From an uncultured Alphaproteobacteria bacterium (GTDB taxonomy: Bacteria; Pseudomonadota; Alphaproteobacteria; RF32; CAG-239), in contig CALYAX010000016.1 of NCBI GenBank assembly GCA_944393665.1, positions 1 through 36,568 on the forward strand: a stretch of 36,568 nt of DNA. The letters are read 5' to 3'. The notes beneath the pieces are model-generated. The model had not been told where the DNA came from. It did no database searches and was given only the letters and a program-made list of their open reading frames with translations. The stretch's first letter is position 1; every line of letters starts with the position of its first letter. Of the stretch, positions 3,502-16,022 are shown in pieces. The position numbers and the translations under genes were made by a program.

Positions 3502-6500
3502 ATGCCTGCGACAATGACTCTTGATTATGCTAAAAGCCTGTGTACCCCGGCTTTGCTGCGCGACCTTCCCATGACGCAAATTGCGGAAATCCGCCAGGTT
3601 TTGCTTGCTAATAATGCGTTGACGGAGTTGCAGGAACTTTTTAGTTTTACCGATCCGTGGCTGAATAAAACCGACATCGATCCGCGGAACTTAGAACCGT
3701 TGCGCAGTATCTATGAAAATAATCCGGCACAAATTAATCAGCTTGACCGCCGCGGCGCCTCTCTGCTGGCAGACAGCGAGCGGAACGGTTTTCTCAGCCA
3801 TTATGCCTCGGGTACAAGCGATACCTATGTCGGGACTGCTTCTTTGGCATCCCTGGCGCAGGATATTGCTCTTTTGCAATATGATGCAGATCATAATCCT
3901 GCTCACAGCAAAGTTGCGGAACTGGCTGACCTTAAAAGCAGAACAGCTGCCCGCCTGAATTTGAATGCTCCTTTGGAGACCTATGCCGATCTGGAAGCTG
4001 CGGAGTATCTGGTTAATAATGCCGGGCTGGATACCGTTGGTCTGGTTGTTAAGGCTAAAGATCTGGATGTTCAGGCCACGGTTCTTGATACGGAAAATGG
4101 CCTGCCTGATTTCAATACCGCCGGCATGGTTGATCTGGTTAATAAAAACTCGGTCGCTTTGAACCGCAGCTTTAATAATATCACGCCGAATGATGTTCTG
4201 ACAATTGATCCTGACCTGAAAGTGTTGTGGGATAATGTCGAGGTCGCCAAAGATACGATGCAGGCCGGTTTGCCCGACAAAACCAAAGACGAATATCTGG
4301 ACAGCTTGTTCCAGGCAGCCCAGGTTGAAGTTTATCGTGAAAATATCGCTAATGATAAATTTAGTGTTTTGCCTGTTGACGCACAGCGCGAATATGTTCT
4401 TGGCGCCGTAAAGAATCAGCTTATCTCTGATATCATTGTCGCCCGCGCGGCTTCCGGATTTGATGACACCATTCGTGAAAAATTGGGAATTGCCCGGCCG
4501 AATGATGCCCAGAAAATTGCCGGTTCTCCGGAGCAGGCGGAATATAACCGCTTGGTTTTGGAGCAGATTAAGAATAAACTGGGAAATGAAACTTCAGCGA
4601 CGGCCCTGCTGAATGATCTGACGAATTATCTTAATGATCCGCTGGTAGCGGCTGACGATAAAAAAGTTAAAATCAAGCCCTGTATGTTGTTGGCAAATCA
4701 TGCTGATAAAGATGTTGATCTGGAGGTTTTCACCCGCCGTCTGAATCAGAAATTGATTGATCATGATAAAGCCGCCAAATCTAAAAAATACCGCCATACC
4801 GTCGTCCGGCTGGCCAACCGCCTGCATAGCCGTGTCGAGGAAAAAGGCCGCAAAATCTTTGGCGAAAAGGCTTATGCCCTGGCAGTCAATATGCGCCGCT
4901 ATATTAACAATCATCCCGGAAAAGCCTGGGAGCTGGCGGCAAACCTCGGCATAGCCGGCGGTTCGATAGCCATGACTTTGGGCTGGGTTTCCAATCCGGC
5001 AGCTTATGCCATCGGCGGTGCCATGGTGACCCACTATTTTTTCAAAAGCTACCTCTATCCCACTTTAGATCAGATGAAACGTCTGTCAGCTACCAGTGAG
5101 GAATACGCTAATGCCAACTTGATGAAAAAGTGGAAAATGGCCCGTGCGGCGGCGAAAAAAGCTGATAAATATCATAATTTTGGCCGAAATGCCGCAGCAA
5201 TGTCTATTGTAACCGGTGTTGCCGGCGGTCTTTTTGCCGGACCTCTCGGCGCCCGTGCCGGTGTTTCCTTTATGACGGCCGGAGCCAATATGTGGCGTAC
5301 CTGGCGCGAGGCCAATCAGGCTAAAATTATGTATAAACGTACCGGCGATCCCAAATATCTGGCCCAGCTGAACGGCGCGTTTGATGATAAAATTGCCAAC
5401 TCCAGAGGCTTGAAAAAGCTGGGCTGGAAAGTCTGGAATTTTGCAACCTCCAAAAAAGGCCAGAAAGTTGTTGCCACCGGCGGCTTCCTTGGGGCATCTT
5501 TCGGCGCGGCCATGCGTCTGGCCAATGCCAACACTGTTACCGAGCTTGCCTCCCATGGACAACCGGTAAATCAGACCGGCTTAACCGCTGACGGATCGCA
5601 CAATCTGTCAACACAGCAGATTGCCGCTTCTGAATACACCCGTGTTCAAACGAGGGTAGATACAACGAAAGTTAATCAGGAAATGATGACAGTATCTCCC
5701 AAATCGATGGCAGATACAACCGTAATTAACCAGGAAACAACAATGACTGGTTTGGTCATTCCTAAGGATGCCTCTCTGGAACAGTTGCAAAAGCTGAATA
5801 AGATTGATGAACAGCGTGGTCTGGATTTCCAGGCCGCTTTGGATAAAGATGTCAATACTCAGGCCAAAATGCTGCCGAGTTTCCGTAATCTGCAGGACAA
5901 ATTGAATTACGTCAACGACTATGACAGCAAACATCTTTCAACGCCTGCCGGTGATCCTCTGCGCGATGTTCTGGAAAAAGACATGCAGGAGCAGTTGAAG
6001 CTGCTGGCTGATGACCCTGTTTTCAAACAGCTTAAAGCCTCTTTGCCGCAAGAGGATCAGGAAATTGTTGATGCCCTCATCAAATCCGGCAACTACCGTG
6101 GGGTATCACAGTTTATTGAAAGCGGCAAATTCCAGTCACATGAGGATTATCTCCGTAATATGATGAAGGAGGCTTATGAAAGCGGCCTTGGCCAGCTTAA
6201 AGAAGGCGGCCATGAGATAACAGAAAATTATCAGGCTGATTCTGCATATATTAATGCCAAATTTGAGGAACTTCTTGCTGATAAAGATACTGCCAAAATT
6301 ATTTCAGGGCTTGATGAGAAAGGGCGTAATGAATTTGCAGATGCTCTTCTGACCAAAGATCCCGAAAAAATTAATGTTTTTCTGCAAAAATATCAGGCAG
6401 GTGTGCGTTTGGATGCTGAAGGCAATGTTCTTAACAGTGTTCCGCACAGTTCAGCCAATGAAATTTTGTACGGGGACGGTCATCGTTCCGGTGATGCTGA

Positions 6501-13964: not shown

Positions 13965-16022
13965 TTGAGCGGAATCAGCCTGACATCATCCATGCGGAAC
14001 AATCTGCTGTCGTTGCAGCAGACGGCTAAGCTGCAGGACCTGACCCAGAACCGCCTCGCCACCGGACTGAAAGTCAATTCCGCGATTGATAATCCGTCTT
14101 CCTATTACACTGCCCAGTCTTTGAACAACCGCGCCGAGGATTTGAACGTCCTGCTGGACGCGATGAGCCAGGGGATACAAACCTTAAAAGCCGTCAACGA
14201 AAGTATCGAGGCCGGAACCAAATTTCTGGAACAGGCGAAGTCCATCGCCAACAGCGCGCTGGAAAACCCGCGGGCAATCGGCAAAGGTGGCGGCGGAGAA
14301 ATTCGCTCGTTGGAGGAATACATATCCGAGGGCTACACTGCAATAACCAAAGACATGACCGCAGCGGAAATCGAAACTTTGTTAACTTCCGGCGCCAAAG
14401 TTGTTCTTGCCGGAGATATCACTCTTGACCGGGGACTAAAAGTTACCGCTGACAATATCAAATTAGATGGCAATGGACATAAACTGACCTATGCAGCTGC
14501 CGGAGTCGGTGAAGCAGTCATTACCATAGACGGCAATGGAGCGGGTGCAGATATTTCCAACTTAAGGATAAGCGCTTCCGGGGAGAAAGTCATCGGTATT
14601 AAAGCTGCCAACGGCGGAAAATTGACCTTGGACAATCTTCAGGGCATAAAAGTCAGCGGCCTTGGTGCGCAGGCCTTATGGTATCGCGATAAAACTTTAT
14701 ATGACGGCAAGGGTAATACGGAAGCGATAATAAAACAACAGGGTGCCAACGCTTTGGCAGCCACGGCCGCAAATCAGTTTTATGTCGGTGACAAGAACGG
14801 AGCTTTTGGTCAGGGTAACTGGTATCTTCCCGCCATCGGCGAGTTGATGGAAATGTTCGGTACTGATACCTCGGCAATGATAGACGGCAGGGGTGTCAGC
14901 GGTGTCATCGGCGATAATAAAAACGCCATTGACAAAGCGCTCACAATCTTAAAGAGTAAAGGTGTGGAGGCTGAAGCTTTGGGTAATAAATATTATTGGT
15001 CTTCCGCAGAGTTTACTAGTAACTTTTCGTGGGTACTCAACGGAGGTAGCGGTAACCGTCACCTCGTCAGTAAGACTAACGCCTACGGCGTGCGGTGTTT
15101 CCAGCTTTTAGAAAATTGTTTTTCACCCTTTAACTCTTCCGCCGCCGGAACCGGCGGCGGCTCAGGGAGCGGTGTAGCTGCTCCGAAAATCGGCGATATT
15201 ATGTATTCCGACAAGACCTGGGGCTCGGCTGACGACTATGTCCGGGGCGGCGGCAAAACCGCCGTAGGCGTTGTCGTTGGCGTTAACGCCGATGGCTCCG
15301 TCAAAATCATGAACCTGAAAGATTTAACTTTTAGCTCTAAAGGCTCAACCGGCAATTTTAACCCCGATAAACCTTATGGGGGAAGTGTGTCAAACAGCTA
15401 CTGGTCAACCGCCTATCAAGACATAACGGCTATTCCAAACTACGGGAGAGATGAACTTTTAACTGCGGCGCAATCCGGCGGCAAAGTCAATATTACCTTT
15501 ACCTCTTCCGGTACCGGCGGTATTTCTTCCAGTATTGCTTCTTCCTATACCGATCAGTTCAACCAGATTCTGACGCAGTACGACCAGTTAATCAACGATT
15601 CCTGGTACAAAGGCGTCAATCTGCTTAAAAGCCAGGACCTGAAAGTGATTTTTAATGAATCCAGAACTGCCGATTTGGACATCAAAGGCGTGGACGCCAC
15701 GTCTGCCGGTCTGGGGCTGGGAACCGCGTACTGGAGCAGTGCCGCCGGGGTGCAAAAGTCGCTTGACCAGATTGACAGCGCCATCAACCAGCTGCGGCTG
15801 TATGCCTCGGAGTTCGGTAACTACTACCAGATTGTCACCACCCGGGAGAATTTTACCAATTCGCTGATTAATGTTTTGACCGAGGGAGCGGACGCCTTGA
15901 CCTTGGCAGATATGAATCAGGAAAGCGCCAATATGCTGGCCTTGCAGACCCGCCAGCAGCTGGCGGTTAATTCCCTCTCGCTTGCCTCTCAGGCCAGCCA
16001 GAGTGTTTTGAAGTTGTTTTAG
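13965..16022 (+). CDS. Chimeric flagellin with inserted beta-helix-like and C-type-lectin-like domains
   Basis: 685 residues against about 370 for the other flagellins here. Residues 1-102 are the flagellin N-terminal D0/D1 helices (SGISLTSSMRNNLLSLQ, LATGLKVNSAIDNPSSYY) and about 527-685 the C-terminal D1/D0 helices ending LASQASQSVLKLF. The roughly 424 residues between replace the surface domain. In order: a beta-helix-like stretch (146-233, DITLDRG...DGNGHKLTY), a lectin-like half (about 237-387) with GNWYLPAIGELMEMF at 284-298 and YYWSSAEF...GVRCFQ at 343-380, a Gly/Ser-rich linker (about 388-407), then GDIMYSDKTWGSADDYV from 410. The last two belong to a DUF1566-like C-type-lectin fold, apparently in reversed order. 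The start is TTG at 13965, exactly where the paralogues have ATG, with GGGGA upstream. The end of the lectin half looks like a retroelement-diversified region. Confidence 0.93.
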   Translation: MSGISLTSSMRNNLLSLQQTAKLQDLTQNRLATGLKVNSAIDNPSSYYTAQSLNNRAEDLNVLLDAMSQGIQTLKAVNESIEAGTKFLEQAKSIANSALENPRAIGKGGGGEIRSLEEYISEGYTAITKDMTAAEIETLLTSGAKVVLAGDITLDRGLKVTADNIKLDGNGHKLTYAAAGVGEAVITIDGNGAGADISNLRISASGEKVIGIKAANGGKLTLDNLQGIKVSGLGAQALWYRDKTLYDGKGNTEAIIKQQGANALAATAANQFYVGDKNGAFGQGNWYLPAIGELMEMFGTDTSAMIDGRGVSGVIGDNKNAIDKALTILKSKGVEAEALGNKYYWSSAEFTSNFSWVLNGGSGNRHLVSKTNAYGVRCFQLLENCFSPFNSSAAGTGGGSGSGVAAPKIGDIMYSDKTWGSADDYVRGGGKTAVGVVVGVNADGSVKIMNLKDLTFSSKGSTGNFNPDKPYGGSVSNSYWSTAYQDITAIPNYGRDELLTAAQSGGKVNITFTSSGTGGISSSIASSYTDQFNQILTQYDQLINDSWYKGVNLLKSQDLKVIFNESRTADLDIKGVDATSAGLGLGTAYWSSAAGVQKSLDQIDSAINQLRLYASEFGNYYQIVTTRENFTNSLINVLTEGADALTLADMNQESANMLALQTRQQLAVNSLSLASQASQSVLKLF
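14991..15104 (+). other. Candidate DGR variable region (VR) in the flagellin lectin-like domain
   Basis: Encodes residues 343-380, YYWSSAEF to GVRCFQ. In the 25 codons from F350 to Y374, 20 end in C or T while their first two bases are scattered (TTT, ACT, AGT, AAC, CTC, GGT, AGC, CGT, CAC, GTC, GCC among them). That is what adenine mutagenesis of AAC/AAT template codons produces. The fixed YYWSS start and VRCF end match the usual frame of lectin-type DGR targets. No template repeat or reverse transcriptase is in the window, so this is an inference from codon pattern and domain type. Confidence 0.6.
15139..15160. repeat. GC-rich perfect inverted repeat downstream of the candidate VR
   Basis: CCGCCGCCGG (15139-15148), two bases AA, then its exact complement (15151-15160). 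As a folded hairpin this gives a 9-bp stem and a GAAC tetraloop. It starts 34 nt after the last VRCFQ codon and lies in the linker coding sequence. Known DGR targets carry a GC-rich hairpin or cruciform just downstream of the variable region that aids retrohoming. It could instead simply be a Gly/Ala linker with skewed codons. Confidence 0.85.

Follow-up and report, generated by a model that had tools for sequence, protein, structure and literature searches.

The window analyzed here, a stretch of 36,568 nucleotides from an uncultured alphaproteobacterium (GenBank assembly GCA_944393665.1, contig CALYAX010000016.1), carries on its forward strand an open reading frame (13965..16022, +) that begins with TTG, ends with TAG, and encodes a flagellin of 685 residues in which a large insert separates the helical N- and C-terminal parts of the filament. 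As the original prediction, made from the sequence alone, had stated, this protein contains the segment YYWSSAEF...GVRCFQ, and it passes the Pfam cut-offs for both Flagellin_N (31.2 bits; cut-off 26.6) and Flagellin_C (33.7 bits; cut-off 23). The insert holds a domain of the Lcl_C/DUF1566 type, putatively C-type-lectin-like (14736..15098, +; residues 258-378), whose Lcl_C match of 27.1 bits falls below the Pfam cut-off of 34.9; Foldseek returned nothing for this domain at E 0.001 or better, and its likeness to the Legionella Lcl C-terminal domain (8q4e) is modest. Ahead of the variable domain, the stretch 14400-14642 resembles pectate lyases at an insignificant level (E 0.12).

The variable region (VR) comprises 37 codons (14997..15107, +), from W345, whose codon begins at 14997, to L381, whose codon finishes at 15107, and is homologous to the template repeats of seven related genomes (G125, G127, G055, G001, G016, G059, and G082). 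Eighteen of its positions were taken as variable (residues 350-354, 357, 359, 361, 362, 364, 366-369, and 371-374), and its 3' end, GVRCFQL (15087..15107, +), is the counterpart of the 3' end common to template and target in the relatives. A GC-rich hairpin follows (15139..15160, +), which can be drawn as a 10-bp stem with an AA loop or as 9 bp with a GAAC loop; this is the perfect 10-2-10 inverted repeat that had been predicted, 34 nt past the Q380 codon. The predicted count of NNC/NNT codons, 20 of the 25 at residues 350-374, is exact, and against 59.8% in the remaining ORF it yields P = 0.028; codon bias over this segment is thus weak taken alone and was dropped as proof of a diversity-generating retroelement (DGR). 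At the 18 template-derived variable positions, 17 codons are NNC/NNT (P = 0.0013).

Variable positions in orthologues and across the family

At the level of aligned proteins, the evidence that goes far beyond chance is comparative, and comes from the window flagellin set beside its orthologue P0005. With the variable columns chosen from templates (mainly those of G125, G127, and G059) after the VRs of homologues had been viewed, and with residues 360, 370, and 375 scored as frame even though their template codons carry adenine, 12 of 18 variable positions differ between the two, compared with 15 of 254 in the remaining insert (binomial 2.4e-11). The two proteins are identical at 242 of 246 residues of the filament core (98%), 239 of 254 of the insert outside the VR (94%), and 18 of 19 of the VR frame, and at 6 of 18 variable positions (33%); P0005 has one extra residue in its VR and lacks the hairpin-coding linker. 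More distant orthologues repeat the pattern: P0012 shares 221/237 core residues (93%), 195/247 in the insert outside the VR (79%), 18/19 in the frame, and 4/18 at the variable positions, while P0008 shares 156/246 (63%), 189/264 (72%), 18/19, and 6/18, respectively. Four still remoter orthologues are 57-65% identical to the window flagellin outside the VR, with 14-15 of 19 frame residues and 1-4 of 18 variable residues retained. From this pattern of identity it follows that, in the window gene's own lineage, change concentrates at positions of the template type, and the contrast with P0005 implies that one of these lineages, or both, diversified recently.

The same arrangement extends through the family. 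The homologues number 193, of which 120 were listed; these include 106 flagellins by Pfam (counting the window's own) and 10 non-flagellins with the domain. Among these 120, a strict VR pattern is matched by 65 of the 106 flagellins, with 64 distinct VRs, and placement is internal, at a median relative position of 0.52 in the 65. In the homologues' VRs, clusters of high-entropy positions are framed by invariant residues (WSS-E, G, R, and R-Q), and at 17 variable columns 1093 of 1105 residues (98.9%) are reachable from AAY codons, compared with 83% in whole proteins. A VR profile finds matches at E <= 0.01 in 58 of 126 family genomes, some of them outside flagellins; order-wide, a template profile at 1e-9 finds matches in 20 of 153 genomes, all 20 from the window's family. 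VR-bearing flagellins stand at all 13 loci fetched from G096 and at all four fetched from G043; an RT search of these two genomes at E 0.001 found no reverse transcriptase (RT).

Several other observations concern the number of copies. Two non-flagellin proteins of about 1100 residues, P0002 and P0003, have three VR-like copies apiece. In G026, three template-like short-frame repeats lie in series beside one RT (G026:C14:31131-31773), and the genome has 33 profile matches, so that one DGR possibly serves dozens of remote targets there. Profile matches are comparably numerous in G040 (30), G004 (25), and G019 (24); no RT of the flagellin-associated kind was found in G019 or G004.

Could an ordinary DUF1566/Lcl_C domain under diversifying selection, with no retroelement involved, account for these data? 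Such a domain does occur in the 10 non-flagellins among the listed homologues, and the codon bias by itself is weak, but selection of this kind would have to place positions of 33% identity within surroundings of 94-98% and keep nearly all variable residues within reach of AAY codons, and in related genomes template, RT, and Avd genes adjoin the flagellins with adenine-biased mismatches (below). We therefore regard it as very improbable. Slightly less probable still is gene conversion between VR-bearing flagellin paralogues, in the style of pilin antigenic variation. Genomes of the family do hold several VR flagellins (two in the window's, and the 13 fetched from G096); however, P0005, P0008, and P0012 all keep the framework of the window lineage (SWVL, GGSG, GVRCFQ) with different variable residues, and a search of the window's genome turned up just one further VR, on contig C8, which has a different framework.

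Retroelement cassettes and hairpins in related genomes

Template repeats appear among the profile matches as short open frames in G125, G055, G001, G016, G059, and G082, and also in G127, matching the VR profile with E values down to 1.8e-20; one example reads FVWSSSENSNNNSWHLNMGSGNRNNNNKNNNNYVRCFQLF. In these templates most of the variable positions are AAY codons. A DGR-type RT adjoins the template in six of the seven genomes (G055, G001, G016, G125, G082, and G127). Template, RT, Avd, and flagellin are consecutive on one contig in G082 and G001; RT, Avd, and flagellin are consecutive in G016, whose template is on a separate contig, and in G055 the flagellin is on a different contig from the cassette. 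G125 has template and RT, but a VR search there found none. In G059 a flagellin-type template is present (L084:6139-6261, on G059:C10) without any VR match and with no RT found at E 0.001; this template is a decayed cassette. The cassette contigs often break, inside the RT in G125 and G016, inside the flagellin in G001, and 273 bases past Avd in G127. A scan of a contig collection matched at least nine loci, one of which (L144) is a record of the G001 cassette.

All six RTs contain IGNLTSQ, which fits the DGR RT motif (I/V/L)GxxxSQ (PMC3521204). They are 61-95% identical among themselves and 27-31% identical to the single RT found in the window's genome, on contig C14 (41% over 87 residues for the G016 fragment). 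RTs of the broader flagellin-associated kind were found at E <= 1e-60 in 23 of the 126 family genomes, a count that excludes the window's own (G000). The Avd genes of G127, G082, and G001, the three scanned, all score above the Pfam bAvd cut-off, and the two run against the NCBIfam Avd model fall under its cut-off of 80 (G127, 50.2; G082, 54.0); the NCBIfam matches of the RTs are to models of other RT groups, all under cut-off.

The signature of adenine mutagenesis is clear in the same-genome pairs of template and flagellin VR from G082, G016, G001, and G055, whose targets are flagellins by N- and/or C-terminal match to the window flagellin: mismatches fall on 59 of 161 template adenines and on 6 of 286 other bases. 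Taken singly, the counts at adenines and at other bases are 13/41 and 2/73 in G082, 15/41 and 0/70 in G016, 16/41 and 3/70 in G001, and 15/38 and 1/73 in G055. A cross pair, the G001 template against the G016 VR, gives 16/41 and 5/70. In G127 the counts are 20/42 and 1/69, for a target that was dropped as a flagellin and counted separately, namely a 302-aa cysteine-rich protein (L152:243-1148; G127:C108) that has the inserted domain and the VR of the flagellins, with a hairpin at nearly the same place. Similarity between template and VR extends to CAGCTT (CTGCTT in G082) and ends there. To judge from their sequences, then, the elements of these relatives are DGRs, with the RT motif, adenine-specific mismatches, and Avd all found.

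In three genomes the flagellin VR is interrupted, by a 2-base insertion in L081 (G001:C185) and L080 (G055:C34) and by a TGA in L156 (G113:C18). These flagellins are either broken, as off-alleles produced by mutagenesis, or products of mixed assemblies.

The predicted association of a hairpin with the VR recurs in the family. Among 23 VR genes, which are those caught by a text pattern in the fetched loci with four of the 13 G096 loci absent, 10 have a stem within one base of a common place 3' of the VR (those of the window, G082, G016, G055, G127, and G024, three of G096, and one of G113). These ten hairpins, of which three have identical windows, have z values from -1.7 to -5.7, and equally stable control windows number zero in nine of the genes and 2 of 48 in G082. 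For the window gene, z is -3.4, and none of the 48 control windows taken further downstream in the flagellin gene is as stable as its 35-base window. All four template-positive genomes that could be tested (G016, G055, G082, and G127) have the hairpin; 13 of the 23 genes, C8 included, have no such hairpin at the common place, and two of these 13 are also unmatched by their own controls (0/48). The loop is TTCNG in G016, G055, G082, the three G096 genes, and the G113 gene, GACA in G127, TTCTA-like in G024, and AA or GAAC in the window. An alignment of five of the ten, from which two duplicates were dropped and the window, G127, and G024 hairpins were omitted for their differing loop or arm lengths, has 90% of cells paired (equaled by 0 of 500 shuffles). 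Both-side changes occur in 4 of its 10 pairs, matched by 21 of 500 shuffles, and its pair-type count is matched by 328 of 500, so that covariation in the stem is suggestive only.

The window's own genome

The window's assembly (42 contigs, 1.74 Mb, completeness estimate 100%) was searched for a template and an RT, and here the original prediction fared less well. No template for the flagellin VR was found in the 42 contigs, the relevant matches being only the flagellins of C16 and C8, and the assembly likewise yielded no RT of the type that accompanies flagellins in relatives; at E values up to 1, the RT search yielded the C14 gene alone, which belongs to another DGR. In G125 and G127 the cassette sits behind RsmB; at the corresponding site, 900 bases of G000 and 500 bases of G059 contain neither template nor RT, and this empty site alone proves no loss, because the G082 cassette is located elsewhere. 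Aligned with each of the foreign templates, seven in all, the window VR has mismatches at 19-23 of 38-42 adenines and at 14-23 of 69-73 other bases; with so many non-adenine differences, none of them is its own template. Flagellin_N scores above cut-off at 15 of the 20 places listed in the window's genome, many with long inserts, and a second VR flagellin lies on C8 (C8:39803-39913). The window and C8 VRs differ by 15, 16, and 15 changes at the three codon positions, whereas third positions change most in four flanking regions; given this equal distribution, these two VRs have no common template.

The DGR on C14 (L012, minus strand) comprises an RT, an Avd-like gene (bAvd 23.0 bits, under the cut-off of 40), and a template and VR at 3882-3995 and 5518-5631. 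Template and VR are 89% alike, their differences inside the repeat fall on template adenines, and the VR lies in another gene, in frame toward a downstream region that we named by eye as a MoxR-like AAA ATPase; the VR reads TGA where the template reads TAA. That this element mutates the flagellin in trans is the least probable of the explanations considered. It is the sole RT found and comes with an Avd-like gene, a template, and an adenine-specific VR, but its template encodes an unrelated segment and its RT, where the alignments are longer, shares about 30% identity with the RTs associated with flagellins. In a similar search, as a positive control, the C14 VR finds its own template at 7e-37; in a base-or-A scan it leaves 1 mismatch in 114 on that template, and the flagellin VR gives only background over both halves of C14 (at best 33 to 36 mismatches in 111), by which the C14 template was rejected for the flagellin.

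Loss in the lineage is the most likely reason for the missing template and RT, and unassembled DNA is less likely. Repeated loss leaves orphan VRs, which would account for the absence of detected RTs in G096 and G043 and for the template without an RT in G059, and DGR activity may fade after a target has become well adapted (PMC3521204). That a DGR is present and active in the strain, with template and RT in DNA missing from the 42 contigs or on an unbinned mobile element, is, we think, a minority prospect. Cassette contigs of the relatives often end in or near the cassette (G125, G016, G001, and G127), G096 and G043 are rich in VR flagellins and likewise yield no RT, and the comparison with P0005 points to diversification not long ago in one lineage or both; yet the completeness estimate is full, even the permissive RT search returned the C14 gene alone, and a search of a viral contig collection found no relatives of the templates or the flagellin, so that a viral carrier was set aside.

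We therefore retain part of the prediction that this bacterium diversifies its filament by retroelement mutagenesis: it holds for the lineage, in view of the templates, RTs, and adenine-specific mismatches in four genomes, and is not supported for the strain, in whose assembly no template or RT for this VR was found. The flagellin VR is not part of any DGR found in the window's own genome, and its working likeness to one is strong. Very probably, the VR was diversified by a DGR of the kind that adjoins flagellins in related genomes, and it appears as an orphan in the window assembly. Error-prone cDNA of the template would replace the VR segment (mutagenic homing), the downstream hairpin would mark the homing site, and the diversified residues would make up an exposed face for binding that recurs along the filament. 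It is likely that the filament surface of the window bacterium has been shaped by targeted mutation. We offer more tentatively, as doubtful at present, that the filament in this family is a DGR-diversified display array, with a lectin-like face repeated along it, a repertoire of several flagellins (13 in one relative), and a hairpin in the coding sequence that directs cDNA to an internal site, the window flagellin being live and served by an unassembled cassette.

Flagellin as a target and comparison with known systems

Host immunity is directed to a large degree at flagellin, and flagellotropic phages use the filament as a receptor. Salmonella, for example, alternates between two fixed flagellin genes (Hin; PMC8987985); if the reading above is true, a retroelement that rewrites selected flagellin codons would add another way of diversifying the filament, DGR action would extend to an internal VR in a polymer that assembles itself, and the binding partners of the variable faces would become directly testable. 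An internal VR in a flagellin had been predicted to be new. Its internal placement is borne out by the 65 flagellins, but a 2019 survey already includes "flagellin", as one word without description, in a list of DGR target gene functions (PMC6642488). In a literature search on DGRs and flagellin that covered the main text of mostly open-access journal papers, a flagellin target appeared only in that survey; the string "flagell" is absent from the main text of Roux 2021 (PMC8144416), and passages of PMC10769870, PMC12926258, and PMC9938205 hold nothing bearing on flagellin DGR targets. As a variation on known DGRs, the target in this family is a flagellin, its VR sits inside an insert, and the coding sequence often includes a hairpin.

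The DGR of Bordetella phage BPP-1 acts on a phage tail protein (Mtd) with a C-terminal VR. It is alike in its template and variable repeats, its adenine mutagenesis, and the GC hairpin behind the VR, the stem of which it requires; hairpins of phage DGRs have stems of 7-10 bp, 4-nt GRNA loops, and a distance of 4-34 bp (PMC3240598). Unlike in BPP-1, the VR of the window is internal and in a bacterial flagellin, with the hairpin within the coding sequence, and unlike the GRNA loops of phages, the loop is TTCNG in three of the four template-positive genomes tested, while the GACA of G127 fits GRNA. DGR targets with DUF1566 domains, such as those of Vibrio cholerae and Stenotrophomonas, share the domain family of the window target, although the survey places the Vibrio VRs at the C-terminus (PMC6642488), unlike the internal VR of the flagellin. 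The Legionella Lcl C-terminal domain lies outside any flagellin. Alphaproteobacterial flagellins such as Caulobacter FljK, finally, have the filament core in common with the window flagellin, and FljK, at about 270 residues, has no room for such an insert.
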